Source: Saprospirales bacterium (lineage in GTDB: Bacteria; Bacteroidota; Bacteroidia; Chitinophagales; Saprospiraceae). Taken from it: a stretch of DNA of 64,000 bases. A model generated the notes under the pieces. It made no database searches. It was given only the letters and a program-made list of their open reading frames with translations, and was not told where the DNA came from. The DNA lies in assembly GCA_007695145.1 (NCBI GenBank), contig REEI01000068.1:1-64000 (forward strand). The letters run 5' to 3'. Position 1 is the stretch's first letter. Each line of letters begins with the position of its first letter. The position numbers and the translations under genes were made by a program. Positions 32,001 through 59,327 of the stretch are shown here, in pieces.

Positions 32001-35000
32001 ATCTCACGAATCCTGGAGATGTGTGTTTATACGGTATTGCCATCGATGGTGGTGGGGAACATACGGTAATTCAAAACACCATTGATACTGTCGCTTATGG
32101 AATTGCTTTGCAAAATTCAAGCGACAATAATCTTGGTGTTACAGATTTTGGGAATGAAATATTCACACATGAATACAGTCCTGACCCTACAGTAATTCCA
32201 ACTGGTATTCTGTTGTTTGGATCCAACCAAAATTCCATATCGGACAATGAAGTAAATTCTGTTCGTTACGGAATTCATTTGGCAGACAACTCGGATGATA
32301 ATGCTATCGCATTCAACAGAGTGGAGGGACAGGATCACGGTATAATTTTCCGTGTTTTTAACTTCCCTATGTCGGCATCATATTCTGCTCAGAATAACCA
32401 GATACTCGCAAATGAAATCATTGCAACGGATTCCAGCTTTAAGTATGGGATTAAGTTGCAGGACTCCGCCAATATGAATATTATCACTGAAAACAACATT
32501 CACAGCGGATGGGGCGGTATATGGATAGAAGGATCATCAGATATAAGCATAGTAAATAACTTTGTGACTACTACTGAATACGGTATTCGCCTCCGGACCG
32601 GAGCTGAAAATGTCAATGTCAATGAGAATAGCATTGAAGGTCAAAGTGAAAATGGATTGGAGAATATTTCCGGCAATTTGACCGATGCCACCTGCAACTG
32701 GTGGGGTTCAGCTTCACTTATGGATATCAATGATGCTATTTCCGGTTCTGATGTTGATTCAGTTCCCTATTTATATAGCGGTTTGGATGATGACCCGGTC
32801 TCGCCTGGTTTTCAGCCGGAACCTATGGCCTGTGTTTTTCAGTTGGACTGCCCACAGGATACCGCTTTGATCGGTTCTTCAGCACCTGCTTGCAATACAA
32901 TGGTCGGTGGGTTGATTGCTACATCCAATGATCCGGATGCCATTTTATCCAATGATTTTCAACCTAGTGGAATGGGAAATGCCTCAGACACATATCCATT
33001 TGGAGTAACTGTAGTAACCTTTACTGCTGAAAGTGCCCTGGGCGATAGTTTGAGCTGCACGACTACGGTTAGCATTGAGGAAGAAGTCGAATTGAGTTGC
33101 GTCGCGACGGATACTATTTACCTGGACGCCATGTGCGAGGCTGTTCTTTCCGATTACACCGATTCCATATTTGCCGAAATCATAAATGGTTGCGATTCTG
33201 TTTATATTCTGACACAAAATATTTCTGCCGGAACTCCCCTCACTGCTGCAGGTTTTATTCAGATAGAGGTAGTGGCAGAAAATGCAACCTATGGGAATAG
33301 CGATACCTGTTACATTGAAGTTGCGGTTTTGGATTCCATTCCGCCTTCCATTTTCTGTAATTTGGTATTGGGACTTACGGTAAGTCTTAATGACAGTTGT
33401 GAATCCACTATACCTACTTTTGATGCACCTGCCTTCTATACACTAACTCCTAATTGCGACACCCTGATTACTTTTTCACAGACTCCTGTTCAGGGGACAG
33501 TTATAAGTGGAGTAGGCATGACTCCTGTAGTCTTATCCGTGAGTGACCAATCGGGCAATAGCTCAAGCTGTTCCTTTAACTTTAATACAGCGGACCTAAT
33601 TCCACCAACGGTCACATGTCCTTCATCCTCGGATACGGTTTATGTAGATCAAATGTGTGAAGCCTCCGTACCCAATTATATTTCTTTAACCACCGTCATG
33701 GACAACTGCAGTCCTCCAATGGTTTCGCAGGATCCCGCGCCTCAGGGGCTGATTGGCCTCGGTATTCACACTGTGAGGATCGATATTGAAGATGAGGGCG
33801 GTAACACGGATAGTTGTCTTGTTGAAGTGACCGTACTGGATACCATTTCACCTATGGTATCGTGCACTAGCACCGTTGTGATTGCCCTTGACTCTATTTG
33901 TCAGGCAGAGGTTCCCGATTTCAGAACCACAGGAGACGTTAGTTTCTCTGACAATTGTGTTGCGGATTCTAATTTGATATATAGCCAGAGTCCTGCAGCG
34001 GGCGATTTTTTCAGTGGTGTGGGTATGGATTCTGTATTGATCATAGTAAGTGATTCTTCTGGAAATTCAACAAGCTGTCAATTATATATTGATTTGGTAG
34101 ATTTTTCTGCCCCGCAATTGAGTTGCCTCGATTCTAGTATTACAGTTGCTTTGGATTCCAATTGTCAATATATTGTCCAGGATTTTTCATTCAATGCAAG
34201 TGTTGCGGATAACTGCGATACAGCGGTAGTCCTGAGCCAGTTTCCTTTAATTGGGGACACACTAACAGGTCCCGGCCCAATAACAATTACATTAACTGCT
34301 ACGGATGCCTCTATGAATTCTTCTGTTTGTTCCTTTACTCTTGAAGTGGAGGATCAGGATCCCCCTGTTATTGCATGCCCTGCGAGTCAGGATACGGTGT
34401 ACCTGGATTCTGTTTGTGAGGCCACTGTACCGGATTATGTCACAGCGCTTTCTGTTGGTGACAATTGTGGATTGGATACAGTATTTCAAAATCCTGCAGC
34501 TGGCTCGAGTGTAGGAATTGGTAATCATGTCATAATTATTGAAGCAGTAGATGAAAGTGGAAACGGATCGAGCTGTACAGTTAATTTGGTTGTTCTTGAC
34601 ACCATTCCGCCTGTGGTAAGCTGTGACCCGGATACTCTGTATTTAGGACCGACCTGTGAAGTGTCACTTCCTGACTACCTTTCTCTTGCGTCAGCGACTG
34701 ATAATTGCGATACATTGTTCACTACCAGTCAATCACCGGACATGGGAACTATAATTGATTCTGCCGGGGTTTACAATGTGCTTTTGAGTTTTACAGATCA
34801 AAGTGGTAATACTGGTACATGTACAGCTGAGGTAACTGTCATCGACACTATAGCTCCAACCATTGATTGCCCTTCATCGATCACTCTGGTGCTCGACTTC
34901 AATTGTCAGGCAACTCTCGGTGACTACACCGGTGCTGCCATTATTGATGACAATTGCGGCGGCCCGCTTAATGTTACTCAAAACCCAGCTGCAGGATTTA

Positions 35001-38000
35001 CATTGATAGGAGTAGGATCGCAAACAGTATTTTTAGAAGTGGAGGATGGTTCAGGTAATACAGCAAATTGTAGTTTTTCAGTTATTACAACAGATACCTT
35101 GCCACCTTCTTTGACTTGCCCTATCGCAATGGATACGATTTATGTGGATAGTGCCTGTGAAGCATTGATTCCTGATTATGTGTCCATGGTGAGCGCATCA
35201 GACACTTGTGGCCTGGCCTCGCTTACTCAGGATTCTGTCGCAGGTGAACTCATTGGTTTGGGTATACATACTGTAACGATTACCGCTGAGGACAACAGTG
35301 GGAACGTTTCTACTTGTGCCATTGAATTAATGGTTTTAGATACCATTCCACCTATGGTTTTCTGCCAAAATGACACTATCCAGTTGGATGCCAATTGTGA
35401 GGTTTCGATGCCAGACTACCTGAGTGGAGCTATGGTTAGCGACAATTGCGATACAACTTTCAGCCAGGTTCAGACACCAGCAGTTGGTAGCCCGATTTCT
35501 GCCCCCGGTACGGTTGCAGTAACTATAGAATTTACTGATAGTAGCGGAAATACAGGAAGCTGTGATTTTGATGTAATCGTAATAGACACTATCGCACCTT
35601 CTTTAACTTGCCCGGCTACCATTACTTTGGACCTCGGTTCAAACTGTAGCACAACTTTAGCAGATTACACAGGGGCAGCCATAGTGAATGACGCTTGCGA
35701 CAGTGTATTTGTAATGACCCAATCCCCACCAAACGGCACCATTATTTTTGGTTCGGGCACTCAAACTGTCACCATTACAGCTGAAGATGCTTCCGGCAAT
35801 ATTGGAAGTTGTTCTTTTTCTGTTGTAACTCAGGATATCACTCCTCCAGTTGTCAGTTGTCCAAGCGGACCTGATACATTATATGTAGACGCATCTTGTG
35901 AAGTATTGATGCCTGATTACGCTACTGGATCTGCTTCGGATAACTGTGGAATTGCTTCCGTGACTCAAAGTATTCCGGTCGGTGATGTAATTGGTACCGG
36001 AGCATTTAGCATTACATTATTTGCGAGCGATATCAATGGCAATGTAGATTCATGTGAATTCCTTTTAGAGGTTGTTGACAGCATAGCTCCTGTTGTAGCC
36101 TGTTCTGACGTGACCATATACCTGGATAGTGATTGTATGGTTGCATTGCCTGACTTTAGTGATGACATTGTTGTTACTGACAATTGTGACTCATCCTTTA
36201 TGATTGATCAAAGTCCATTACCCGGAACCATAATTGACTCAGTGGGTAGCTTGAGCGTTTGGATAATGGCAACTGACTCCTCCGGGAATAGTGATGAGTG
36301 CGAAATAATTGTAACCACTATAGACACCATTGGACCATCCATTACATGTATGGGTGCGCTTACGCTATATCTCGATGAGGATTGTCAGGCTATACTGCCT
36401 CCATTGGCACCCTCTGACTTTACTGTTAACTGTGATATCAGTCCTGATATAAGCCAAAACCCTGCAGCAGGCACAATATTTAATGGACCAAGCTCTATTT
36501 CAGTAATATTGACTATTGAGGATGTTTTTGGCAACAGTGATGACTGCTCTATCGATATTGTTGTGCAGGACACAACAGCTCCTGTAGTAGCCTGCCTGGT
36601 TGCAGTAGATACTGTTTATGTTGACTCCTCTTGTGAGGCCTTTGTTCCCGACTTTGTATCGGACACTATGTTTGTTCAGGCATCTGATAATTGTGGAATT
36701 TCATCTATCACTCAGACTCCCGTTCCAGGGTCAACTTTTGCACCTGGACTTGTTCAGGTTATGGTGCTGGTAGAGGACAATAGCGGCAATTTATCTGAAT
36801 GTGAAATTGAGCTGGCCGTTCTTGACAGTATTGCTCCTCAAATTAACTGTCCAGAAGGTCCATTTGAACTGGTTTTAGATGACAATGACTGTACGGCTGA
36901 GTTGATGGATATTACTTCAATGTATTCCTTCTCAGTTAGCGATAATTGCGATACCAGCCTCAGTATTCTTCAAATTCCTGAGGCAGGAACGATTGTCACT
37001 GCTCCGGGATCAATAACTGTAACTGTAAGAGCAACGGACAATTCCGGCAATGAAAGTGAGTGCATGGTTGATGTAAATGTAGTGGACGAGGTCGCTCCAT
37101 TCATTATTTGCCCTGTGTCCATTACAATGCCAATCTTTGGTGATTGTGAGTCATTTATCCCACTTTTAACGCACACACCATTTATTTTTGACAATTGCGA
37201 TACGGCATTTACTGTTACCCAAACTCCTGCAGGATTCAGTCCGGTAATGGGTGGAGATCCCGAGGTGGTAACTATAACTGTTGCTGATATGTCCGGCAAT
37301 ACTGCCACTTGTGATGTAACTGTATTCTTTGAGGACAATGATCCACCGGTGATTGCTTGTCCTGCAAGTTCGGATACTATCTCTGTAAATGGTGATTGTC
37401 TTGCAGCTGTACCTGATTATGTGTCAGGTCTTATGGTTACTGACAATTGCGGTATAGAAAGCATCGAACAGTTTCCTGAATCGGGAATTTTCGTTGGTGT
37501 TGGAAACAGCACTGTAATCATTGTAGCTACTGATGTAAACGGAAATTCGGCTAGCTGCACAATCGATTTGAGTGTTGAAGATGTGGATGCACCAATAGTG
37601 AGTGATTGCAGTGATATCACCATTTATTTAGACCATAATTGTTCGGTTGAATTGCCGGATTTGTCGGATCAGGTAGGTTCACTCAGTGATAATTGTACAG
37701 AGAATCAGGACCTGGATCTTACTCAATCACCAGCTGAAGGCCACCTGATAACTGCTCCTGGGGTTCTGACTGTGAATCTAACATTTACTGATGAGAGTGG
37801 CAACACTGGAGATTGCGACATTGAAGTTACTGCATTGGATACAATAGTTCCCTCCCTGGTGTGCACTACCGGCATCACCCTATATCTAGATACCAATGAG
37901 GAGGCTGAGCTTCCCAATCTGGAAAGTTTGGTGGATGCAATGGATAATTGCGATGCAGATCCAGGTGTTTCCCAAAATCCTGCGCCAGGCACAGTTTATA

Positions 38001-41000
38001 CACAAGCAGGTATGGAGTTGGTAGAAATGACAGCTACTGATGCTTCAGGAAATAGTCAAAGTTGTTTTATTTCAGTGATGGTTGTTGATACTTTGTGCCC
38101 AGGTCTGTCATGTTCGATATCTAGTGATGTGATTTCAGTGGCTTCCAATAACTGTGAAATTTCAGTTCCAGATTATACGCTTTTCGCTTCTGCTTCTGTC
38201 GATTGTGGTCCTGTTGCTTTTAGTCAGAGCATCGTGGCCGGCACTTTGATTGGTCCAGGCGTATACCCAATTACTGTGACAGCAGAGGATACGCTGAGCA
38301 ATAGTTCAACTTGCTCAATTATTCTGACGGTTGAGGATAACACTCCACCGGTTGTTGAGTGCCCTGCGTCATCAGTTACCATTTATTTGGATGAAAATTG
38401 CGAGGTCAATCTTCCTGATTATGCAGCTCAATCAAGTGCTTCTGATAACTGCGGGCCTGGGGGGTTACTGGTTTCTCAAACTCCTGTCGCAGGAACATTG
38501 TATACTGGTACACAAACCATAAATGTGGTGGTAAGTGCATCCGATATTTCTGGAAATGAAGGGTCTTGTACTATCCAGGTTTCTATAGAAGACAACACAG
38601 CACCAACGCTTGTTTGTCCTGAAGTAGTTGAAATCCTGGTAGATGAGGATTGTGAATTTGAAGTCCCCGATATTTCTACATTGGCCACCATTGGAGACAA
38701 TTGTGATAACGACCCTGGTACTTCACAGAGTCCTGCAGTAGGCATTACAATGAGTGGAACTGAAAATGTTACAGTTGACTTTGAAGTTACAGATGCCGCA
38801 GGAAATTCCAATTCATGTTCGGTTACCCTAATCGTAAATGACGAGATAGCACCGGTAATGTCAAATTGTCCTCCGGATTTTTCATTCACCATCTCCTCTG
38901 ATAGCTGCATTGGATTGGTTGAAGTTGATGAACTGGTAGCATTTGATAATTGTACTTCAGTTGATATCACCAATGATTTCAACGATGGGGGTCCCAATGC
39001 GTCCGGTAGTTATCCATTGGGAACCACTGAGGTAACCTTTGTGGTATCTGATGAAAATGGCAACTCATCTACCTGTTTGTTGGTAGTTGAGATTTCAGAC
39101 AATACACCGCCGGTTGTGACCTCATGTCCTGCTGATGTGACAGTGAATTGCGGACAGCCTACCGATCCTTACTATACAGGAGGACTGGCATCCGGAGTGA
39201 ATATATGCAATGGTGATGTTGCTGTAACTTACTTTGATGAGGTGGTTGGTGAATACTGTGAAGACCGGGTAATCACAAGGACGTTTATTCTAACAGATGA
39301 CCTTGGAAATGCTGACTCTTCCTGTGTTCAAATGGTTACGGTATCTAATGATGCAGGGCCTGTAATGGTAAATTGTCCTGAAAGTGTGAATGTGATTCTT
39401 GCCCCTGATTCTTGCGAGGTATCTATTGATTTCCCTGAAAGCATCGAAGCTTACAATAGTTGTTACCACGAGAGTTTTGAGTTTAGCGGATATACACCGG
39501 GTTCTTATCCGGGAGTGCAATCACTGAGCTTTAACCGCAATCAGAGTGACCTCGTGCGCATAAGAGGATTCTTTTTTACACCATTCCCCAATCCGGGAAC
39601 CATGAGTCCTTATTCTGCCACTCACGGAAACTATCATGGAATTATTAAATCCGCGGATGTAAATGCTGACAGTACCGGTACATTCTCAAGACTTGGAGGT
39701 TATTCCTCCACTTTCGCAGGTGGATTTGAAACCTCCATAGACGTTTATATAGAATTAAATGATCCGGCTGTTATCAATGGTACTTATGGATGGGATGTTG
39801 GAGTTGGTGTAAATGACCAAAGTGGGGACTTACTCAGAAATTATTATTTCCATGTTGCCAGCAATGCGACCGGTCAGGTTTTAATCGGGTCTTCCAACCA
39901 GACTGATGGAACGCGCAAAACTGACCTTGCTTCAGGCAATCATGCACAGATTTCAAGCAGTAGATGGTTGAGGTTTGTATGGACATTCCAGGATGCCGGA
40001 GATGGTTCAATGGAAGCCAATCTGACAGTCATGCGATTAAATGGTACCGTAGTTTACAGTGAAAGTTACAATGAGGCTTCAGATGTTATTGCCGACATAG
40101 TTGGTGGGAACAGAAGTATGGACTTCCCATTCCTTGAGGTGGAGGATTTGAGCATCGATAATGTGCGTCTCAAGTACTTCCCGGTATCCACTTCATGTGA
40201 TTTTGCTGGAATACAAACTCTTGGAATTGGCGTTCATGAAATTGAATGTGTGGCAGTTGATGCTTGCGATAATGAAGTGACTTGCAACTACACAGTAACA
40301 GTAATTTCTGAGGATGAACTCAGCCTGAGCTGCCCTTCAGAAATTGAGGTAGCTGCTGGAGAAGGTGATTGTTTTGCTTTCGTTAATCTGGAGGCCGAGC
40401 TTTCTGTTCCATGCGATTTAGAAGTGAGTGTTGAAAATTCCTTTAATAATGGAGGATTGAACGCAAGCGGAAATTATCTGATTGGAACAACTGAAGTTGA
40501 ATTCACAGTGATTTCTGAAGTGGGTGATACTGTTATCTGCATTACTACAGTAGAGGTGACAGGCGAAGAACCAGAAGCTATATCGATTATGTGTCCTATG
40601 GGAGCCAATGTATCCAACGATTCCGGAGAGTGTTTTGCACAAGTAAATCTTGACTCTGCAGTGGTTATGACCGGATGCGATGTTGAAGAAACCCTCTCTA
40701 TAGTCAATGATTTTAATTCCGGTGGTGCTGATGCTTCTGCTGTTTATCCAGTGGGTGTTACAGTGATAACCTATACCGTAACAGATGGCATCTCGAATTT
40801 TGCGAGCTGTAGCATCAGTGTTCAGGTCAACGATACTGAAGCACCAGTTGCAAATTGCTCAGATATTAGCCTTGAGCTTGATGGAAGCGGTTCGGTTGAA
40901 ATAAGCAGCAGTCAGATTGAGGCCATGTTCTCTGATAACTGCGGAATACAGTCAGTTGTAGCTGTACCCTCTACTTTTGATTGCGATAATATTGGAAATA

Positions 41001-43531
41001 ACGTGATTGTATTAACTGCCACAGATGACAGTGGTAATACTGCCAGTTGTTCTATCAATGTTACTGTTAATGATTTGATTGCACCACTTGTTAGCTGTCC
41101 TTCGGAACTAAATATTGAAGCTGAAGAAGGGGAGTGCTTCACTGAGGTAAGTTTAGTGGCTTCGGCTACGGATAATTGCGAAATTGTCTCGGTTGAAAAT
41201 ACCTATAACAGCGGAGGATTGAGTGCAAGTGGGCAGTATGAAATTGGAACCACTGTTGTTACCTTTACTGCTGAAGATGCATCTGGAAATTCTGCAAGCT
41301 GTTCCACTGTTGTTAATGTTACAGGTGATGCTCCTGGCAGCTTTACCCTCAATTGCCCAGGAAATATCACAGTCGATAATGATGAGGGAGAGTGCAGTTC
41401 CGAATTGAATATTCCTGAAGTTACCTTTACTGAGGGTTGTGGATTTGCAGGATCGGTTACTATAGAAAATGATTACAACAGCGATGGGGCTAATGTTTTG
41501 GATGTTTTCCCGGTTGGAACCACCACTGTTGTATTTACTGGAGATGATTCATCCGGCAATACAGCTCAGTGTTCTGTGAATATTACTGTGGAAGATACTG
41601 AAAGCCCGGTTGCAAATTGTGAGCAGATTAATATTGAATTGGACTCTACCAATTCAGCTGTTCTCGTAGAGAGTGATTTTGACTTTATGTTCGAGGATAA
41701 TTGTGGTATTGATTCTTTCCATTTATCCAGGTCTGAATTTGACTGCGACACTTTAGGTTTCAAGAATGTTATCATTACAGCTGTGGATGGAAGTGGAAAC
41801 TCAGTTATGTGTACCACGCTTGTAGTGGTCAGCCCGGGCGAAAGCGATTGCGAACCCGTTACATTTGAGATTGCTAATGTTAGTGGTGAGCCATCGGAGA
41901 CCTTGTGCGTGCCAGTAACGGTTGAACATTTTAACAATGTTGCGGGTGTTCAGGTCTCTGTGATTTCTGAGGATACCAGTGTGTTCAAAATAACAGGTTT
42001 AACCAATATAGCGCTTAATCCCGGTTTATTTTCCTTTAATGTCTTGCCCGGAGGAGAGGTATCAAATATGAGCTGGTTCAATGCTACTGCGATCAATCTG
42101 GCAGACGGTGCTGAGGTTTTCTGTATTAACATTGAAATTACTGGTGAATTAGGTGATTCAGCCGGTCTACTATTTACTAATGCTCCTGTTCCTGCTGAAA
42201 TTACTGTAATTAATGGCAGCCCAACTCAAGGACCAGGCTACTTTATAAATGGATCAGTTGTGGTTGAACCGGATACGGGCGCGATAGCTGGTCTGGAAGG
42301 AACAGTAGTTACTGAGTACGGCTCTGCTGTTTCAGGAGTGGTTATGAGTATTAAGAATACTGAAGCGGCTACCCCGGCAAGCATTAGTGATTCGTATGGA
42401 GATTACTATATGCAAGTTTTTGCCGGTATAGAATTTGAGCTGGCTGCTTCCAGGGAAACAGATCCTTTAGAGGGGGTTACCACTCTTGATCTTGTGAAAA
42501 TTCAACAACACCTTCTACAAATTAGCTTATTGGATTCGCCCTATAAGATTATTGCAGCTGATGTTAATGGTGATGGAGTTTTGTCCACCTTTGACTTGTT
42601 GTTGATTCAAGCTAATCTTGTTGGAAATATTTCAGAATTTCCTGGTAATTCATCCTGGAGGTTTGTTCCTGCTGATTATGAATTCATCAATCCTGAAAAC
42701 CCGCTTGGTGAGGAATTCCCCGAGTCAAAGTGGTATGAGGGAATTAATGGAATGTTGACCCAACAAGACTGGATTGGCATCAAAGTTGGTGATGTAAACA
42801 ATTCCTATAATCCTGCGAATACAGCAGAAATTCGCGATTTGAGACCAGAGTACCATCTGCTTATTTCTGATGTAGAAAAGTTAGATGAAAATACTTACCT
42901 GGTACCTCTTTTCTTTATCGAGTTCGACGGATTGAGTGGCATGCAGTTTAGCCTTCCATTGGAGTCACAACTGGGTAAAATCAAGGCCATCAGCTTTGAA
43001 AATTCTGAACTGGAAACCTCTTATGGATTGGATTATCTAATGGATTTAAAATCCGGCTATCTCAATTTCAGTTGGTATGATGGCAGAGGGGTTTATGTTG
43101 AAAATAGAATGCGAGCATTCAACCTGATTGTTGAAAGCAAGGATTTTGCCAGCTATGTGGAAAATCTAGCATTCAGTGCCGAGGGTAGACTTGTGCCTGA
43201 GGCATACAGCAGATCAGGTGAGATATTTGATCTTGGCATCTTAAGTGAACTGCAACCACCGACTCTTGAGAGGATTTTTGAATTGTATCAAAATGTTCCG
43301 AATCCTTTCAGTTCACATACGACCATTGGATTCACCGTGCCTGAGCGCATGGAGGTTGTTTTAGAAATATACTCCGAAGATGGCAAGTTGATTAGGGTAA
43401 TTGAAACAACTGCTGAGGCTGGGATGAATCAGATTTCAATAAATGATGATGGATTCACATCAGGTTTGTATTATTACAGATTGGAAGCCGGAGAGTTTAG
43501 CGGTGTAAAGAGTATGATAAAAGTTGATTAA
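29051..43531 (+). CDS. Giant secreted HYR-repeat protein with T9SS sorting domain
   Basis: The 4826-residue product is a single uninterrupted frame. It has a signal peptide (cleavage expected after AHA, residue 32), four parallel beta-helix modules (about 35-1255), about 33 HYR modules (about 1265-4265), a cohesin-like beta domain (about 4270-4410), a carboxypeptidase-regulatory-like segment running into a dockerin-like calcium-loop pair (TTLDLVKIQQHLL and ADVNGDGVLSTFDLLLIQ, about 4470-4520), another beta domain, and a T9SS type A sorting domain (about 4740-4826, with YQNVPNPFSSHTTIGF). It should cross the outer membrane by type IX secretion and be attached to the surface or released; an adhesive or structural role is an inference. 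HYR modules carry about four cysteines each. Similar giants are common in Saprospiria. Terminators flank it on both sides, so it is monocistronic. Confidence 0.9.
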   Translation: MMANLLRITCGRTIALTAVLFWVANSVTPAHAQTTWNVCDTCTITTIQAAIDSAMVGDTVLVGAGTYSETIDINKDGLVVRSELGAPATIISGSGSGPSLATVRITANNIVLDGFTINNMDAAGGCVSGGNNASDIQIINNLFVQSDFGVRGDFYGRFGNNILIADNEFQTNRGVAQTEMWTGLSITGNLFTGNGSTVNAIGLGADTEVTAIEDNTFNQINGLVVRDSIQAAAVVNNTFNNGGFAGLYVRNLTGTDILDAVNAANTFSPEAVKAIAFGDEYLVASFSDYAPVVNLNSQTGYLVIQEAIDGANDGDVIEVGANKSFIFVSSNSDPDAPITVNREGITLTTDPINPATLQDDGPSFYPIIEIFANGVTIENFNLVRNNATSGGQVLASRKSDVIIQNNTISGNNNASPAITVDHGIPGNYDDIVTGIEIINNSIVGEFGWGFGIRSENGPGEIQIVNIEDNHVDVTGGGMFLFFTGIHPDNGLENATITIEGNTFLNHTLQIFDNSDALNDLPAVIANNTFDRAVIITDGTNVVERNSARRVYSFIQSAINDAETADTIQVSSGTYSENIDFTGTSQLVVLGPNAGTSGCDTLRNPEAVIQGTITISTGAALDFLHFDGFRIESDSVDGIIGLRLQDGGIYNNVLMGNWVGGSINDINGIMTGAATPSAVQNWTISGNKISGYFRGLDLRGDASLNNAFVVENCFENNSIASFSNNSFHAGTPNIQFERNTIVNNSRGVRFASGHFEFRENALTNNGLFGIRLGTDSPLENVLIENNFINQHDLAIRSDNNSVPTTNVIIRNNDLSNNDVALDTEIDYIANCNWFGTDDLDSITNNLVTGMGTVYLEPYLIDGTDGQPGQIGFFPDPANCQNPDIVFNLTQNSSFSSIQTAIDLANPGDTIQVGTATFMESIVIDKEGLTLQNGSWPVIDGGGSSTPVRITANNVTLKGFKVTNAAADSALIWIDNVTGVTVDSNYLTNPGDVCLYGIAIDGGGEHTVIQNTIDTVAYGIALQNSSDNNLGVTDFGNEIFTHEYSPDPTVIPTGILLFGSNQNSISDNEVNSVRYGIHLADNSDDNAIAFNRVEGQDHGIIFRVFNFPMSASYSAQNNQILANEIIATDSSFKYGIKLQDSANMNIITENNIHSGWGGIWIEGSSDISIVNNFVTTTEYGIRLRTGAENVNVNENSIEGQSENGLENISGNLTDATCNWWGSASLMDINDAISGSDVDSVPYLYSGLDDDPVSPGFQPEPMACVFQLDCPQDTALIGSSAPACNTMVGGLIATSNDPDAILSNDFQPSGMGNASDTYPFGVTVVTFTAESALGDSLSCTTTVSIEEEVELSCVATDTIYLDAMCEAVLSDYTDSIFAEIINGCDSVYILTQNISAGTPLTAAGFIQIEVVAENATYGNSDTCYIEVAVLDSIPPSIFCNLVLGLTVSLNDSCESTIPTFDAPAFYTLTPNCDTLITFSQTPVQGTVISGVGMTPVVLSVSDQSGNSSSCSFNFNTADLIPPTVTCPSSSDTVYVDQMCEASVPNYISLTTVMDNCSPPMVSQDPAPQGLIGLGIHTVRIDIEDEGGNTDSCLVEVTVLDTISPMVSCTSTVVIALDSICQAEVPDFRTTGDVSFSDNCVADSNLIYSQSPAAGDFFSGVGMDSVLIIVSDSSGNSTSCQLYIDLVDFSAPQLSCLDSSITVALDSNCQYIVQDFSFNASVADNCDTAVVLSQFPLIGDTLTGPGPITITLTATDASMNSSVCSFTLEVEDQDPPVIACPASQDTVYLDSVCEATVPDYVTALSVGDNCGLDTVFQNPAAGSSVGIGNHVIIIEAVDESGNGSSCTVNLVVLDTIPPVVSCDPDTLYLGPTCEVSLPDYLSLASATDNCDTLFTTSQSPDMGTIIDSAGVYNVLLSFTDQSGNTGTCTAEVTVIDTIAPTIDCPSSITLVLDFNCQATLGDYTGAAIIDDNCGGPLNVTQNPAAGFTLIGVGSQTVFLEVEDGSGNTANCSFSVITTDTLPPSLTCPIAMDTIYVDSACEALIPDYVSMVSASDTCGLASLTQDSVAGELIGLGIHTVTITAEDNSGNVSTCAIELMVLDTIPPMVFCQNDTIQLDANCEVSMPDYLSGAMVSDNCDTTFSQVQTPAVGSPISAPGTVAVTIEFTDSSGNTGSCDFDVIVIDTIAPSLTCPATITLDLGSNCSTTLADYTGAAIVNDACDSVFVMTQSPPNGTIIFGSGTQTVTITAEDASGNIGSCSFSVVTQDITPPVVSCPSGPDTLYVDASCEVLMPDYATGSASDNCGIASVTQSIPVGDVIGTGAFSITLFASDINGNVDSCEFLLEVVDSIAPVVACSDVTIYLDSDCMVALPDFSDDIVVTDNCDSSFMIDQSPLPGTIIDSVGSLSVWIMATDSSGNSDECEIIVTTIDTIGPSITCMGALTLYLDEDCQAILPPLAPSDFTVNCDISPDISQNPAAGTIFNGPSSISVILTIEDVFGNSDDCSIDIVVQDTTAPVVACLVAVDTVYVDSSCEAFVPDFVSDTMFVQASDNCGISSITQTPVPGSTFAPGLVQVMVLVEDNSGNLSECEIELAVLDSIAPQINCPEGPFELVLDDNDCTAELMDITSMYSFSVSDNCDTSLSILQIPEAGTIVTAPGSITVTVRATDNSGNESECMVDVNVVDEVAPFIICPVSITMPIFGDCESFIPLLTHTPFIFDNCDTAFTVTQTPAGFSPVMGGDPEVVTITVADMSGNTATCDVTVFFEDNDPPVIACPASSDTISVNGDCLAAVPDYVSGLMVTDNCGIESIEQFPESGIFVGVGNSTVIIVATDVNGNSASCTIDLSVEDVDAPIVSDCSDITIYLDHNCSVELPDLSDQVGSLSDNCTENQDLDLTQSPAEGHLITAPGVLTVNLTFTDESGNTGDCDIEVTALDTIVPSLVCTTGITLYLDTNEEAELPNLESLVDAMDNCDADPGVSQNPAPGTVYTQAGMELVEMTATDASGNSQSCFISVMVVDTLCPGLSCSISSDVISVASNNCEISVPDYTLFASASVDCGPVAFSQSIVAGTLIGPGVYPITVTAEDTLSNSSTCSIILTVEDNTPPVVECPASSVTIYLDENCEVNLPDYAAQSSASDNCGPGGLLVSQTPVAGTLYTGTQTINVVVSASDISGNEGSCTIQVSIEDNTAPTLVCPEVVEILVDEDCEFEVPDISTLATIGDNCDNDPGTSQSPAVGITMSGTENVTVDFEVTDAAGNSNSCSVTLIVNDEIAPVMSNCPPDFSFTISSDSCIGLVEVDELVAFDNCTSVDITNDFNDGGPNASGSYPLGTTEVTFVVSDENGNSSTCLLVVEISDNTPPVVTSCPADVTVNCGQPTDPYYTGGLASGVNICNGDVAVTYFDEVVGEYCEDRVITRTFILTDDLGNADSSCVQMVTVSNDAGPVMVNCPESVNVILAPDSCEVSIDFPESIEAYNSCYHESFEFSGYTPGSYPGVQSLSFNRNQSDLVRIRGFFFTPFPNPGTMSPYSATHGNYHGIIKSADVNADSTGTFSRLGGYSSTFAGGFETSIDVYIELNDPAVINGTYGWDVGVGVNDQSGDLLRNYYFHVASNATGQVLIGSSNQTDGTRKTDLASGNHAQISSSRWLRFVWTFQDAGDGSMEANLTVMRLNGTVVYSESYNEASDVIADIVGGNRSMDFPFLEVEDLSIDNVRLKYFPVSTSCDFAGIQTLGIGVHEIECVAVDACDNEVTCNYTVTVISEDELSLSCPSEIEVAAGEGDCFAFVNLEAELSVPCDLEVSVENSFNNGGLNASGNYLIGTTEVEFTVISEVGDTVICITTVEVTGEEPEAISIMCPMGANVSNDSGECFAQVNLDSAVVMTGCDVEETLSIVNDFNSGGADASAVYPVGVTVITYTVTDGISNFASCSISVQVNDTEAPVANCSDISLELDGSGSVEISSSQIEAMFSDNCGIQSVVAVPSTFDCDNIGNNVIVLTATDDSGNTASCSINVTVNDLIAPLVSCPSELNIEAEEGECFTEVSLVASATDNCEIVSVENTYNSGGLSASGQYEIGTTVVTFTAEDASGNSASCSTVVNVTGDAPGSFTLNCPGNITVDNDEGECSSELNIPEVTFTEGCGFAGSVTIENDYNSDGANVLDVFPVGTTTVVFTGDDSSGNTAQCSVNITVEDTESPVANCEQINIELDSTNSAVLVESDFDFMFEDNCGIDSFHLSRSEFDCDTLGFKNVIITAVDGSGNSVMCTTLVVVSPGESDCEPVTFEIANVSGEPSETLCVPVTVEHFNNVAGVQVSVISEDTSVFKITGLTNIALNPGLFSFNVLPGGEVSNMSWFNATAINLADGAEVFCINIEITGELGDSAGLLFTNAPVPAEITVINGSPTQGPGYFINGSVVVEPDTGAIAGLEGTVVTEYGSAVSGVVMSIKNTEAATPASISDSYGDYYMQVFAGIEFELAASRETDPLEGVTTLDLVKIQQHLLQISLLDSPYKIIAADVNGDGVLSTFDLLLIQANLVGNISEFPGNSSWRFVPADYEFINPENPLGEEFPESKWYEGINGMLTQQDWIGIKVGDVNNSYNPANTAEIRDLRPEYHLLISDVEKLDENTYLVPLFFIEFDGLSGMQFSLPLESQLGKIKAISFENSELETSYGLDYLMDLKSGYLNFSWYDGRGVYVENRMRAFNLIVESKDFASYVENLAFSAEGRLVPEAYSRSGEIFDLGILSELQPPTLERIFELYQNVPNPFSSHTTIGFTVPERMEVVLEIYSEDGKLIRVIETTAEAGMNQISINDDGFTSGLYYYRLEAGEFSGVKSMIKVD
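29155..32830 (+). repeat. Four beta-helix modules in the giant protein
   Basis: Each module opens with a related motif of the form IQxAID..GD.I.VG..T: TIQAAIDSAMVGDTVLVGAG near residue 45, IQEAIDGANDGDVIEVGA near 305, FIQSAINDAETADTIQVSSG near 555 and IQTAIDLANPGDTIQVGTA near 895. Between them are many short NxFxxN-type turns of a right-handed beta-helix, as in pectate-lyase-like folds. Confidence 0.75.
32843..41850 (+). repeat. Array of about 33 HYR modules
   Basis: Modules of about 80-85 residues (about 250 bases) follow one another, each built as C-P near the start, a second cysteine in a CEAxVPDY-like segment, DNC, a glycine-rich turn, and D-x-SGN-x-S-x-C before a VxDxxxPP linker. Counting by eye gives 33. 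Modules 4 to 24 fall into three alternating types; modules 25 to 33 are the more classical HYR form with NDFNDGG-like turns. Nucleotide identity between modules is low, so this is an old array. Confidence 0.8.
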
Positions 43532-54689: not shown

Positions 54690-54720
54690 TTTGGGAGTAT
54701 AGTCAATGTGATTAAATTTG
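54690..54720 (+). promoter_or_regulatory. Likely promoter of the tandem AAA+ gene
   Basis: TTTG (54690-54693) and TAAATTTG (54713-54720) are 19 bases apart, a near-ideal match. A leader of about 130 bases would precede the ATG at 54857. The rest of the gap is A/T-rich without other signals. Confidence 0.55.
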
Positions 54721-54856: not shown

Positions 54857-57487
54857 ATGATAAAATCTGATAAGGAATCAGAGGTGAGTAACTTTAAGTA
54901 TCACGAACTGCGCCTCTACAGTTCAACGGAGTGGTTGGCAGATAATCGCAAGAAATACAGGCAGGTTTTTGACCGGCACAGTACCTCATATATATATGCC
55001 GAACTCAGTTTTTACAACAAGCTTTTTGATCGTGAATCCTGGGAAGTCACGGTAGATTTGAAGTGTTATGCTGTGAAAAGAAACAATCGGGAAATGTGCT
55101 CCCTAAATATCAAGAGAAAGGTAAGCAAGTACGATCCGGTAGTTTATGTCCGGGAGGGTTGGGGCAACAAAAGGGAAGGTGTATTTTGGAAGAGGGGTAC
55201 TTATTATTGGGAGGCCTTTATTGATGGCCAGAAGGTCGCCAGTAAATATTTTTATGTTGAAGATGCCGGAATGTCTCTGAGTTCTGACCACAATCCCTTT
55301 TTGGAATTGGAGTCTCTCAAATTGTATGAGGGGCAGTACGACGACGTCGCAGAAGGAGATAGGTCCTATTACAGCAAGTTTTCCAGCGAGGAAACCCGCT
55401 ATATTTATGCCGATATAGTTTTCCAGAATAAGAACCTCAAGTCAGACTGGCAGTGTGAACTTTTTACTAAATATTACAATCAGGCCAGAGAGCTCAAAGG
55501 GCAAATCATCAGGTTGCAACAGGTTAAGAAGGAGGATGATCGAATTCGTCTAACGGCCGGTTGGGGTTCTAATGTTAAAGGTTCCTGGCGCAAAGGACAC
55601 TATTCTGTCGAGTTGGTCTTTATGGACCAGTTATTGGCAGTTTTGCCCTTTGAAGTTGGGGATGAGTTTGAGGAAGGAGTTGGTAATGTTCAGTTTCCGG
55701 TGACCGGTGCTCCAGGCCTGTTTCAGGCAGCAGGGGATTTTAACGGCTCTTTCGATGAGTTGATGGGAAGGCTGGATGAGTTAATTGGACTCGAAGAGAT
55801 AAAGAAGCAGGTCAGGGATCACGCCAGGTATATCAGGTTTCTTAAACTGAGGAAAAAGAAGGGTTTTAAAGAAAAGGAAAACATCAACGTACATTCGGTT
55901 TTTATTGGAAATCCGGGAACAGGCAAGACTACTGTTGCCAAGATGATGGGTAAACTCTACAAGCGAATGGGGCTTCTCTCAAAAGGCCATGTTCATGAAG
56001 TGGATCGTGTGGACCTGGTGGGGGAGTATATTGGCCAGACTGCACCTAAAGTTAAAGAGACGATCGAAAAAGCAAGAGGTGGGGTGTTGTTCATAGACGA
56101 GGCCTATGCCCTTGCGCGAGCCAATGACGATACAAAGGATTTTGGCAGGGAAGTCATAGAAATATTGGTAAAGGAAATGTCGAATGGGAAAGGTGATCTT
56201 GCCGTAATTGTAGCGGGCTACCCAAAAGAAATGAAATATTTCCTGGACAGCAATCCGGGCCTGAAGTCTCGATTTAAGCACCACTTCAAGTTTGATGATT
56301 ACCTCCCTCAGGAATTGCAGAAAATTGCTCGTTTTGCTGCTGCTGAAAAAGAGGTGGTCTTGAGCCCTGAAGCCGAAATGGCCGTTGATAAAATTATTGT
56401 GGATGCCTACAGAGAAAGAAGCCGGAGTTTTGGGAATGCCAGATTTGTTTACGATTTGATTGAGAAGGCTAAAATCAATTTAGGTTTGAGGGTGATGACA
56501 GAAGAAGGTGATCCTGAAATAACCATCCAAAAGCTTGAGACTGTTTTGCCGGTTGATGTAGAAAAAATAAATTTTTCCAAGATCAAGCAAAGTCCAAAAA
56601 TTCCTATCGATGAGAAGTTGCTCGAGGAGAGTCTGGTTGAATTAAATAGTCTCATCGGCATGGAAAATATAAAGAGGGAAATAGGAGAGCTGGTTGATCT
56701 GGTTCGCTACTACCACCTAGTAGGCAAGGATGTCTTGAACAAACTCTATCTCCATACCTTATTTGTTGGCAATCCAGGTACAGGAAAGACAACGGTTGCT
56801 CGAATTTTGACCCGCATTTACAAGGCTCTCGGGATTTTGGAGCGCGGCCATATGGTAGAGACTGATAGACAAGGGTTGGTAGCCGGGTTTGTTGGTCAAA
56901 CAGCGTTAAAAACTGCTGAAAAAATTGAGGAGGCCCACGGTGGTGTGCTTTTTATTGATGAGGCTTATTCGCTGAATACCAATCAGGGGTCCTCCGGCGA
57001 TTTTGGCAATGAGGTTATTCAGACCATCCTCAAAAGAATGGAAGACAATCGAGGAATGTTTTTTGTGTTTGCCGCTGGCTACCCTGAAAATATGGAAGCC
57101 TTTCTCAAAGCCAACCCGGGCTTGCACTCGAGGTTTGAAAAAACATTGAAATTTGAAGATTACAGTCCGGAAGAGTTGGCCCTCATTGCAGAAAAAATGA
57201 TTGTAGATGAAAATCTGCAGCTTACCGGACCGGCAAGAGAACATCTATTGAGGTATCTTGAATTTGTATACCAACTTAGGGATAAGTATTTTGGAAATGC
57301 CCGTACTGTTCGAAATATAGTGCTGGACGTGATAAAAAACCACAATTTGAGGCTTTCAAGAGTGGAGGTTGACAGTTTGAGCGATCGGGATCGCAGGGAA
57401 ATAAATCTTAAGGATGTTTCTCATCTTAAACTTAATAAAGATCAATTGGTTTTTACTAGAAAGGCCATAGGCTTTGGCCGCAAATAA
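54857..57487 (+). CDS. Tandem CbxX/SpoVK-type AAA+ ATPase with duplicated N-terminal domain
   Basis: The 876-residue product has two AAA+ modules of the CbxX/CfxQ/SpoVK group. Walker A is GNPGTGKTTVAKM near residue 350 and GNPGTGKTTVARI near 637; Walker B is GVLFIDEAYAL and GVLFIDEAYSL; both have the group's NPGLxSRF segment (KSRF and HSRF). Before them lie two related domains of about 125 residues (14-137 and 150-275) that share a TxYIYAxxxF-N-K block, a central W, a GWG turn and a GxY ending; I do not recognise this domain. No membrane segment or signal peptide is seen. Relatives act as Rubisco activases, sporulation proteins or type VII secretion ATPases, but the target here is unknown. 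A SulP gene follows after 103 bases. Confidence 0.85.
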   Translation: MIKSDKESEVSNFKYHELRLYSSTEWLADNRKKYRQVFDRHSTSYIYAELSFYNKLFDRESWEVTVDLKCYAVKRNNREMCSLNIKRKVSKYDPVVYVREGWGNKREGVFWKRGTYYWEAFIDGQKVASKYFYVEDAGMSLSSDHNPFLELESLKLYEGQYDDVAEGDRSYYSKFSSEETRYIYADIVFQNKNLKSDWQCELFTKYYNQARELKGQIIRLQQVKKEDDRIRLTAGWGSNVKGSWRKGHYSVELVFMDQLLAVLPFEVGDEFEEGVGNVQFPVTGAPGLFQAAGDFNGSFDELMGRLDELIGLEEIKKQVRDHARYIRFLKLRKKKGFKEKENINVHSVFIGNPGTGKTTVAKMMGKLYKRMGLLSKGHVHEVDRVDLVGEYIGQTAPKVKETIEKARGGVLFIDEAYALARANDDTKDFGREVIEILVKEMSNGKGDLAVIVAGYPKEMKYFLDSNPGLKSRFKHHFKFDDYLPQELQKIARFAAAEKEVVLSPEAEMAVDKIIVDAYRERSRSFGNARFVYDLIEKAKINLGLRVMTEEGDPEITIQKLETVLPVDVEKINFSKIKQSPKIPIDEKLLEESLVELNSLIGMENIKREIGELVDLVRYYHLVGKDVLNKLYLHTLFVGNPGTGKTTVARILTRIYKALGILERGHMVETDRQGLVAGFVGQTALKTAEKIEEAHGGVLFIDEAYSLNTNQGSSGDFGNEVIQTILKRMEDNRGMFFVFAAGYPENMEAFLKANPGLHSRFEKTLKFEDYSPEELALIAEKMIVDENLQLTGPAREHLLRYLEFVYQLRDKYFGNARTVRNIVLDVIKNHNLRLSRVEVDSLSDRDRREINLKDVSHLKLNKDQLVFTRKAIGFGRK

Positions 57488-57590: not shown

Positions 57591-59327
57591 ATGAAGTTCA
57601 ATCTCAAGGGAACATTCCCTATTATAGACTGGTTGCCATCGTACAATAAACAAATTTTTAGATATGATCTCATTGCAGGTCTGACAGTAGGTGTCATGCT
57701 AATCCCACAGGCCATGGCCTATTCCATGCTTGCGGGTTTGCAGCCGATCCATGGCCTTTATGCCGCATCTCTTCCATTGATTTTGTATGCGATTTTTGGA
57801 AGTTCTCGCCACCTTGCAGTTGGCCCGGTTGCTATTGTTTCCATTCTTACAGCAGCTGGAATTGGAGCTTTAGAGCCCGGAGATTATCAGCAATATCTGC
57901 TATACACCATAACTCTTGCCTTTATGGTAGGTGTCCTGCAGTTTGGGATGGGGTTATTGAAAATGGGATTTATTGCCAACTTTCTATCGCATCCGGTGAT
58001 CAGCGGTTTTACCTCAGCTGCAGCCATTATTATCGGTCTGAGCCAAATTCGGCATTTGTTTGGTATTTCAATGCCCTCCTCAGATAAATTTTACGAAATC
58101 GTCCTGGCGTTTTTGCAAAATGTTGGGGAGATGAACCCTCTAACCCTTATAGTGGGAGTAGTTGGAATTATAGTGATTAAATTTTCCAAAAAGATTCACT
58201 CCGCCATGCCGGGCGCCTTACTCGCTGTTGTTTTAGGAATTTTGTCCGTTGCATTTTTCAATCTATCCGACAGAGGGGTTGCCATATTGGGAGAAGTTCC
58301 AGGGGGACTGCCCGCTCTCATGTTGCCTAGTTTTGAAGGAGAAGTTTGGATGAAGTTACTGCCAATTGCATTGACGATTGCCCTGATAGGATTTGCTGAA
58401 AGCTACGCTGTGGCAAAGACTGTTCAGTCCAGGCATAAGGATTATAAACTCAATGGCAATCAGGAGTTGGTAGGCCTGGGAGTGGCCAATTTTGGATCCA
58501 CTTTCCTCCAGGGGATTCCTGTAACGGGTGGCTTCTCCAGAACTGCAGTCAACGATCAAACTGGTGCTAAGACCGGGATGGCTGCCATTATCAGTGCAGT
58601 TTTAGTCATTATGACCCTTCTTTTTCTTACCCCTTTGTTTTTTTACCTCCCCAATGCAATATTGGCTGCAGTGATTATAGTTGCCGTACTCGGTTTGGTG
58701 AATATTAAAGAACCTATGAGACTTTGGAAGAAAGACCGGGCTGATTTTTACCTGCTGCTCTCCACCTTTTTAGTTACGCTTACAGGAGGAATTGAGGTTG
58801 GAATAGTCGTCGGTTTTGCTCTTTCCATTATTTTAGTAGTATATAGGGCATCCAATCCTCATATGGCCAGATTGGGGAAGGTACCGGGTACCAATCTTTA
58901 TCGAAACATTGAGCGATTTAAAGAAGTGGAAGAGAGAGAAGAAGTGTTGATTTTCAGAGTAGATGGCCCACTTTATTTCGCCAATATGGATTACATAAAA
59001 AATAAACTGGATCACTGGATAGAAGATAAGGGGGAAAAGCTGAAAATAATTGTATTGAATGCCCATACGCTCACATATGTTGACAGTTCGGCTGCTCATG
59101 TTCTCAAGGATTGGATTTTAGAATGGAATCGTGCCGGTTTGGAGACCTATCTAACCGGAGCCCGGGGCCCTGTGAGAGATGCGTTGGAAAGATGGGGTAT
59201 AACAAAGGAACTGGGCGTAGACCACACCTACTCATCCAATGAGCATTTATTCCTATTTTTAGATGGGAAAATAAGCGAAACCGACAAAGAAAAATGGGAT
59301 ATCTATGCCCTGCAGTGCAATGACTAG
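57591..59327 (+). CDS. SulP family anion transporter with STAS domain
   Basis: The 578-residue product has the SulP signature near the N-terminus (GLTVGVMLIPQAMAYSMLAG, then PIHGLYAASLP), about a dozen hydrophobic segments up to residue 430, and a C-terminal cytoplasmic STAS domain with IIVLNAHTLTYVDSSAAHVL. SulP proteins move sulfate, bicarbonate or related anions across the inner membrane; the substrate cannot be told. No clear promoter lies in the 103-base gap after the AAA+ gene, so the two may be cotranscribed. That gap holds an ACTTATCA/TGATAAGT inverted repeat (57494-57526) without a T-run. Confidence 0.92.
   Translation: MKFNLKGTFPIIDWLPSYNKQIFRYDLIAGLTVGVMLIPQAMAYSMLAGLQPIHGLYAASLPLILYAIFGSSRHLAVGPVAIVSILTAAGIGALEPGDYQQYLLYTITLAFMVGVLQFGMGLLKMGFIANFLSHPVISGFTSAAAIIIGLSQIRHLFGISMPSSDKFYEIVLAFLQNVGEMNPLTLIVGVVGIIVIKFSKKIHSAMPGALLAVVLGILSVAFFNLSDRGVAILGEVPGGLPALMLPSFEGEVWMKLLPIALTIALIGFAESYAVAKTVQSRHKDYKLNGNQELVGLGVANFGSTFLQGIPVTGGFSRTAVNDQTGAKTGMAAIISAVLVIMTLLFLTPLFFYLPNAILAAVIIVAVLGLVNIKEPMRLWKKDRADFYLLLSTFLVTLTGGIEVGIVVGFALSIILVVYRASNPHMARLGKVPGTNLYRNIERFKEVEEREEVLIFRVDGPLYFANMDYIKNKLDHWIEDKGEKLKIIVLNAHTLTYVDSSAAHVLKDWILEWNRAGLETYLTGARGPVRDALERWGITKELGVDHTYSSNEHLFLFLDGKISETDKEKWDIYALQCND

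Follow-up and report, generated by a model that had tools for sequence, protein, structure and literature searches.

The forward-strand gene at positions 54857-57487 of contig REEI01000068.1 from a Saprospirales bacterium (phylum Bacteroidota) encodes a protein of 876 residues, in which two copies of an unnamed domain precede two AAA+ motor modules of the SpoVK/CbbX/EccA clade. The first 64,000 nucleotides of the contig, within which the gene lies, are referred to here as the window. Both motors have intact nucleotide and pore-loop motifs, the layout is conserved in a wide range of Bacteroidota, and the gene lacks a conserved operon. We consider it reasonably probable that the protein acts on its own as a chaperone of this clade dedicated to protein remodelling, whose paired N-terminal domains recruit one conserved cytosolic client.

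Two motors of the SpoVK/CbbX/EccA clade

The gene is a single open reading frame (ORF) with an ATG start, and its orthologues have an equal layout. A search of the whole genome with the protein returned one match, the window gene itself. The original prediction, made from the DNA letters, had seen tandem CbbX-type motors in one chain, and the domain matches agree: AAA (PF00004, E 2.9e-35) and AAA_lid_6 (PF17866, E 4.9e-25) each match two stretches, as do SpoVK/CbbX/EccA-type models of NCBIfam. Genome-wide, AAA_lid_6 gave two matches at E <= 0.001, both within this gene. The first module, D1, covers residues 301-570 (55757-56566, + strand, as are all features of the gene); its closest solved relative by phmmer is CbbX (3zuh, 207 bits, against 154 bits for EccA1). 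The second, D2 (residues 589-856; 56621-57424), is slightly closer to EccA1 (164 bits) than to CbbX (157 bits).

Motif conservation was followed in an alignment of 116 two-motor proteins, the window protein included; of 70 proteins fetched from the neighbourhoods, 14 had been omitted for their other length, and 5 of the 80 named loci had contributed 6 truncated pieces that were likewise left out. The Walker A motif reads GNPGTGKT both in D1 (residues 351-358; 55907-55930) and in D2 (638-645; 56768-56791), with its Lys and Thr (K357, T358 and K644, T645) present in all 116 proteins. Apart from one gap at the D2 sensor-2, both modules also keep the Walker B Asp/Glu (the Glu of D2 being E702), the sensor-1 Gly-Tyr and the sensor-2 Asn/Arg throughout. 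The Gly-Tyr pair (G454-Y455 and G741-Y742) is found in 116/116; a Tyr in the sensor-1 region, forming a GY signature, is given as a feature of the SpoVK/CbbX/EccA clade in PMC10659427. The sensor-2 Arg, the second arginine finger, is R529 in D1 (116/116) and R816 in D2 (115/116, the remaining one being the gap), and the Asn (N466, N753) and last Arg (position +6) of the NPGxxSR motif are invariant in both modules. Pore loop 1 is EYIG in D1 (390-393; 56024-56035), where Y391 aligns with the Tyr of CbbX QYIG and is Tyr in 108 and Phe in 8 proteins. Its counterpart in D2 is GFVG (677-680; 56885-56896), with Tyr (57), Phe (48), His (10) or Trp (1) at position 678, which is thus aromatic in 106 of the 116. 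In CbbX, the pore-loop Tyr serves to thread the Rubisco tail (PMC5437159).

Three named families of the clade invite comparison. In NCBIfam each module scores best against SpoVK (TIGR02881), with 275.7 and 243.0 bits, but singly both stay below the cut-off of 422.95, which the whole chain (503.8) passes solely by their sum. Judged by this per-module test of the sequence, the protein is not SpoVK. SpoVK itself, whose N-terminal domain is short, is reported only from sporulating Firmicutes (PMC10659427). The window protein has two modules, about 290 residues ahead of the first motor, two Ig-like domains and a host in the Bacteroidota. Since the two scores add up over the cut-off, automatic pipelines may attach a sporulation name to it; this is an annotation trap, the Bacteroidota not being known to make endospores. 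EccA (TIGR03922; 9lur) resembles the window protein in having an N-terminal extension before the motor, but the window chain has two modules, scores 420.9 bits against a cut-off of 466.65 and does not share the TPR N terminus of EccA: its N-terminal model is nearly all beta, and no family matches residues 1-298.

CbbX (TIGR02880; 3syl, 3zuh) is the nearest solved structure to D1, whose pore-loop Tyr is likewise kept, and these two likenesses would favour a Rubisco activase. The window protein differs from CbbX, however, in its two modules and paired N-terminal domains, and its score (418.7 for the whole chain; 240.8 and 187.7 for the modules) is below the CbbX cut-off of 459.25. Moreover, the window's genome, a 99% complete assembly, contains no match to the Rubisco large subunit (PF00016), a search whose controls gave a match in 5 of 14 named genomes. 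Rubisco was therefore rejected as the client, and a role as activase is extremely improbable. In the window's class, 7 of 296 genomes gave a large-subunit match, just one of them being among the 75 that have the N-terminal domain; this genome, G034, of the window's family, holds a 508-residue ORF of the Rubisco large-subunit type (locus L360, G034:C7).

Outside the clade, p97/Cdc48 and NSF combine AAA+ rings in tandem with a client domain at the N terminus. On paper the window protein is built alike, with an N-terminal recruiting part and two AAA+ modules per chain; in contrast to p97/Cdc48, its motors belong to the CbbX clade (CDC48 model 39.9 bits, SpoVK 503.8) and its N domain is an Ig-like pair.

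The paired N-terminal domain

Residues 13-137 (54893-55267) and 149-272 (55301-55672) align internally as diverged copies of one domain, which the AlphaFold2 model and the family alignment also delimit. The duplication, with its YIYA block and GWG turn, had been proposed in the original prediction and stands well clear of chance: the local alignment of the two copies scores 111, against 30.2 +/- 5.5 and a maximum of 50 in 500 shuffles. A G-x-W...G-x-Y...E ending is common to both copies as well. The domain had been called unrecognised, and by sequence it does remain without a name. Residues 1-298 have zero matches in Pfam, NCBIfam and PADLOC, and residues 1-290 zero in PHROGs, all to E=1. When 32 single domains were scanned against Pfam, weak matches only were obtained, the best being to DUF3859 (E 0.0017, in 1/32), with PapC_N in 2/32. 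The bit scores obtained were below the cut-offs: copy 1 of the window protein scores 17.4 bits against DUF6625 (cut-off 27), and the protein of locus L139 scores 18.2 against DUF3859 (cut-off 24) and 23.8 against PapC_N (cut-off 27). A profile search had been advised in the original prediction, and a single-domain profile finds the family in other genomes; among PDB chains, a 46-sequence profile gave no match at E up to 10, and the best match of the single sequence (E 0.23) was taken as chance. A 'beta-prism' N domain is mentioned for some CbbX-like proteins (PMC10659427).

Structure prediction, which had also been advised, yields two ordinary beta-sandwiches, almost entirely beta, for the pair (AlphaFold2 with 46 sequences; mean predicted local distance difference test score (pLDDT) 86.4, predicted TM score (pTM) 0.80). 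The top chain in Foldseek is the biofilm protein RbmA, with E 2.0e-8, a TM score of 0.30 by query length and 12% identity. With VIA-align, the single domain matches a domain of AlkC (Z 10.8, root-mean-square deviation (rmsd) 3.0, 107 residues aligned), the GH2-type enzyme 3fn9 (Z 10.7, rmsd 2.3, 103 aligned) and the Wzt transporter domain 6o14 (Z 10.3, rmsd 2.9, 111 aligned), all three inside one Z unit. We take these matches to be Ig-like. The predicted fold of the pair is thus a common Ig-like beta-sandwich and uninformative on function, because a Z near 10 is also reached by many unrelated domains (AlkC, transglutaminases, PECAM-1).

The same matches bear on another explanation, in which the ligand of the pair is a sugar of the cell envelope or one linked to a lipid, while the motors remodel an enzyme of envelope synthesis, as SpoVK does MurG. 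Besides the O-antigen-transporter domain of Wzt, the best structural matches include GH2 glycosidase domains, and the N-terminal domain is rich in invariant Trp and Tyr. Within the clade, SpoVK acts on MurG and EccA1 has been tied to mycolic acid synthesis (PMC10659427). However, a fold score shared by so many unrelated domains gives no function, and no envelope-gene neighbour is conserved across families. An envelope role is therefore unlikely, if still the best placed of the alternatives weighed here.

Over the 116 two-motor proteins, mean column identity is 0.74 for copy 1 and 0.66 for copy 2, compared with 0.76 for D1 and 0.71 for D2. The pair comes close to the motors in conservation, which fits a single conserved client. 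Within copy 1, the loop S23-N30 (STEWLADN; 54923-54946) is nearly invariant among 48 close orthologues, and further out it is still strongly conserved (E25 0.97, W26 0.91, A28 0.91). Residues 25-32 are modelled below pLDDT 50, and a loop so conserved and yet so poorly modelled is a candidate contact site. Characterised members of the clade are described as dedicated chaperones with variable N-terminal domains proposed to recruit clients, and no peptidase partner has been found for them (PMC10659427). By analogy, the window pair likely recruits the client, in keeping with the earlier suggestion that the duplicated domain could be the part that recognises a substrate.

Distribution, family tree and neighbouring genes

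Of 60 relatives, a set that includes the window's own genome, 40 match the N-terminal pair; the weakest of these matches (G016) has E 2.4e-6 and a stop inside. In named genomes 322 loci match, and of the best 80 of them, 79 have Bacteroidota names, mostly Saprospiraceae, and one is named 'bacterium'. Cultured relatives with such a locus include Phaeodactylibacter xiamenensis (L075) and Lewinella cohaerens (L108). In the window's class, where up to 14 candidates were scored per genome, a single-domain profile is positive in 75 of 296 genomes at E <= 1e-5. Exactly two copies of the domain are present in 73 of the 75 (G465 has 3 and G471 has 4), and the frames among the matches listed are mostly 865-930 residues long, with shorter ones such as 603, 614, 631 and 368 residues. 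The domain is thus wedded to these motors. With a two-domain profile, the yield was 19 among 345 genomes of the phylum. Another Bacteroidota class has the domain in 77 of 293 genomes at E <= 1e-4, and the commonest form listed there is a protein of about 1300 residues with one copy of the domain, TPR matches at the N terminus and three AAA+ modules. The two-motor architecture is real, conserved and widely spread in Bacteroidota, and is not a one-off. Neither this architecture nor the operon of the three-motor cousins described below was found in the literature searched, a search that covered few subscription journals. The plan had originally been judged not assignable to any known system; it does have a variant layout with an unnamed domain, but it is far from isolated, and since N-terminal variability has already been noted for the clade, it is a variant within it and not a separate kind.

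A tree of 122 modules was built from the window, 4 of the 80 named loci, the loci with G handles and CbbX, with some motors of L141, L142 and L145 missing; CbbX forms a long branch and the root is unsettled. All 45 D1 modules of the two-motor form fall in one clade (98/93), and the D2 modules, together with two single-motor versions, in a second (100/94); this second clade is joined by the three-motor form's middle module (100/99). By their sequences, D1 and D2 are thus old and distinct modules, not the product of a recent duplication. The single-motor versions nest inside D2, so that those proteins have lost D1. The three-motor form shares the N-terminal domain family with the window type and differs from it in its single domain copy, its added TPR-matching N terminus and its third motor.

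The pair also occurs with fewer motors or none. Two fetched proteins (L148 and L222) combine it with a single motor, and L236 and L269 have it without any, contig ends being nearby in L269. Tandem copies of the domain without a motor, behind a start that by eye resembles a signal peptide, are encoded at L301:7670-8497, L302:7418-8338, L136:7526-8362 and L144:6475-7311; in these four, the domain apparently has an exported use.

Around the gene itself, little is shared. The original prediction had given it a good promoter of its own after a long gap. The gap is there, 603 bp separating it from the upstream ORF, and a promoter-like match, TTTG-N19-TAAATTTG, lies at 54690-54720 (+), about 136 bp 5' of the ATG. 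This Bacteroidota-type pattern has 4 occurrences in the window, where 1.98 would be expected, and 10 of 100 shuffles reach a count of at least 4. Because this is not above chance, a promoter of its own is plausible at most. Downstream, as had also been pointed out, an anion transporter follows: a SulP-family permease with a STAS domain at 57591-59327, at a distance of 103 bp. Among 81 loci compared for neighbours, many of which end early at contig ends, the permease adjoins the gene in 4, namely the window and its three closest relatives, while 61 of the 81 loci hold at least 2 kb downstream. As a partner the transporter was rejected; it says little on function, and with no neighbour conserved beyond close relatives it is incidental. 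Likewise, a comparison of 71 loci (54 from outside the named set) showed no gene within four ORFs that is shared by more than 6, and those recurring at 6 or 5 loci represent local synteny or a short-chain-dehydrogenase-like gene. The check for recurring neighbours that the original prediction had recommended thus brought up none conserved beyond close relatives, and the two-motor gene works as its own unit.

A divergent AAA+ gene of a Clp-like kind (P0006 type), coding for about 1100 residues, lies near the two-motor gene in 33 of the 81 loci and in 29 of the 57 that hold at least 4 kb upstream; the other genes that recur in the 81 loci reflect local synteny. The Clp-like gene is always on the opposite strand (33/33), within three called ORFs upstream in 32 cases and downstream in one. 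A representative, L037:6547-9849 (-), has an N-terminal region without matches and is extended by about 340 residues at the C terminus, and relatives at about 30% identity exist elsewhere in some of the same genomes. The gene is present in 13 of the 60 relatives, over its whole length in 12 and over residues 190-1093 in G014. It is absent from the window's genome, where the best match covers residues 482-778 in an 852-residue frame taken for an ordinary Clp protein. All 13 holders match the N-terminal pair, but this co-occurrence weighs little because 33 of 37 genomes of family f1 match the pair anyway. When 14 loci with the Clp-like gene or one of its paralogues were fetched, the two-motor gene lay beside it in two, and two others shared some synteny genes. 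With so partial a distribution, the Clp-like gene was rejected as an obligate partner.

This neighbour is one of several hints at an ATPase of an anti-phage or other conflict system, in which the pair would sense a signal of the invader and the motors would switch an effector. The PADLOC models of IetA and TRIP13 touch the motors (best E 8.4e-17). In addition, a motor-less pair in genome G471 (L236:8268-9371) ends in a helical-looking stretch weakly like effector-associated domain 11 (EAD11), with E 0.055 and a sub-threshold 13.9 bits against a cut-off of 26. EAD-type adaptors occur in conflict systems. However, the PADLOC score is 59.6 bits at best, for IetA, far under the 503.8 of the clade's own model, and NF042959 reaches 49.5 bits against a cut-off of 510. 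No partner cassette recurs around the gene, whose neighbours were not scanned one by one for defence families, and the recruiting pair is conserved too highly and too evenly to resemble a party in an arms race. Furthermore, the pair was not found in plasmids and the domain was not found in viral contigs, where three pattern hits yielded zero confirmed cases; the 11 phage records with a match all begin at residue 295 or later, outside the pair. An origin from mobile elements or viruses was rejected on these grounds, and a defence function is very unlikely.

A regulatory context is visible in three of the three-motor cousins. In L305, L306 (4893-13119) and L307 the three-motor gene lies directly 3' of genes for an 85-residue helical protein and a SiaC-like protein (124 residues in L306) in a conserved SiaABC-like operon. 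These two are preceded by genes for a REC-SpoIIE phosphatase, a REC protein and REC/histidine kinases. L306 and L307 encode DUF6272, which is SiaB-like, in an ORF of its own; in L305 it forms, judged by eye, the end of the phosphatase. Pfam matches for the L306 set are SiaC (PF09345, E 1.1e-36), DUF6272 (E 1.6e-29) and Response_reg plus SpoIIE; the remaining operon genes of L305 and L307 were assigned by eye. The 85-residue proteins of L306 and L307 have no Pfam match. Pseudomonas SiaC binds the stalk helix of the SiaD cyclase at residues that include R80, I81, S82, D83, R84 and Q86 (PMC8457831). Aligned with this stalk by eye, the 85-residue proteins carry RLGDKAQ, RMGDKAQ and KMGDKAQ. In these three loci, a SiaABC switch is apparently wired to an AAA+ machine.

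Could the window protein, too, be the output of such a phosphoswitch? The shared operon of the cousins is what speaks for it. Neither the window's genome nor any other of the 40 pair-matching relatives gave a match to SiaC, and the 4 of the 60 relatives that do have SiaC all lack the pair. The lead thus concerns the cousins, whose branch (at least 60% identity over the length of the three-motor form) was found in just 3 of 293 genomes of their class, the query's own included and up to two candidates being scored per genome. SiaABC control of the window gene is not supported and must be regarded as most improbable. Elsewhere in the window, positions 29051-43531 (+) form one uninterrupted ORF of 4826 residues.

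Proposed mechanism and significance

As a stand-alone chaperone, the protein would form an oligomeric ring, probably hexameric like that of CbbX, in which the two AAA+ modules of each chain stack as two rings. The paired Ig-like domains would catch the one conserved cytosolic client and present its flexible tail or loop to the pore. Both rings would then hydrolyse ATP and pull the client by their aromatic pore-loop residues, with activation, assembly or disassembly of the client, rather than its degradation, as the outcome. Ring assembly, recruitment by the pair and threading are inferred here by analogy with the better-studied members of the clade.

Several observations weigh against this proposal. 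The client, the oligomer and the activity are themselves proposals drawn from related proteins. The AlphaFold model of the full-length chain has a pTM of 0.40 and lends little to the ring arrangement, and the two single-motor relatives retain D2 only, so that two rings are not strictly required. The second variable position of NPGxxSR (+4) is Arg in 9 of 116 proteins per module, being mostly Lys in D1 and mixed in D2, unlike NPGFRSR of CbbX and NEGLRSR of EccA1; if that Arg is a finger, catalysis between subunits may differ from that of CbbX and EccA1. Moreover, 221 of the 296 class genomes and 20 of the 60 relatives gave no match to the domain, and such patchy occurrence means that the client, or the need for it, is not universal. 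Finally, given the motor-less proteins with signal-peptide-like starts, the domain need not catch clients for an ATPase in every setting.

A broader reading, which we put forward tentatively and hold to be rather doubtful, is that the Bacteroidota possess a family of two- and three-motor machines of the CbbX clade with a private, unnamed Ig-like recruiting domain. In one class, where about a quarter of the genomes have it, the two-motor form would serve a housekeeping client that is conserved, and a small three-motor branch would be placed under a SiaABC partner switch through the 85-residue helical protein with its SiaC-binding-like motif. If this is true, the switch in that branch would have an engine for remodelling proteins as its output instead of a diguanylate cyclase. 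The characterised members of the clade each have one client or setting, namely Rubisco repair for CbbX, type VII secretion and its substrates for EccA and activation of MurG for SpoVK (PMC10659427). A widespread, conserved and uncharacterised branch with a recruiting domain of its own, definable as a new family, would imply an undiscovered client in a phylum of considerable ecological weight.

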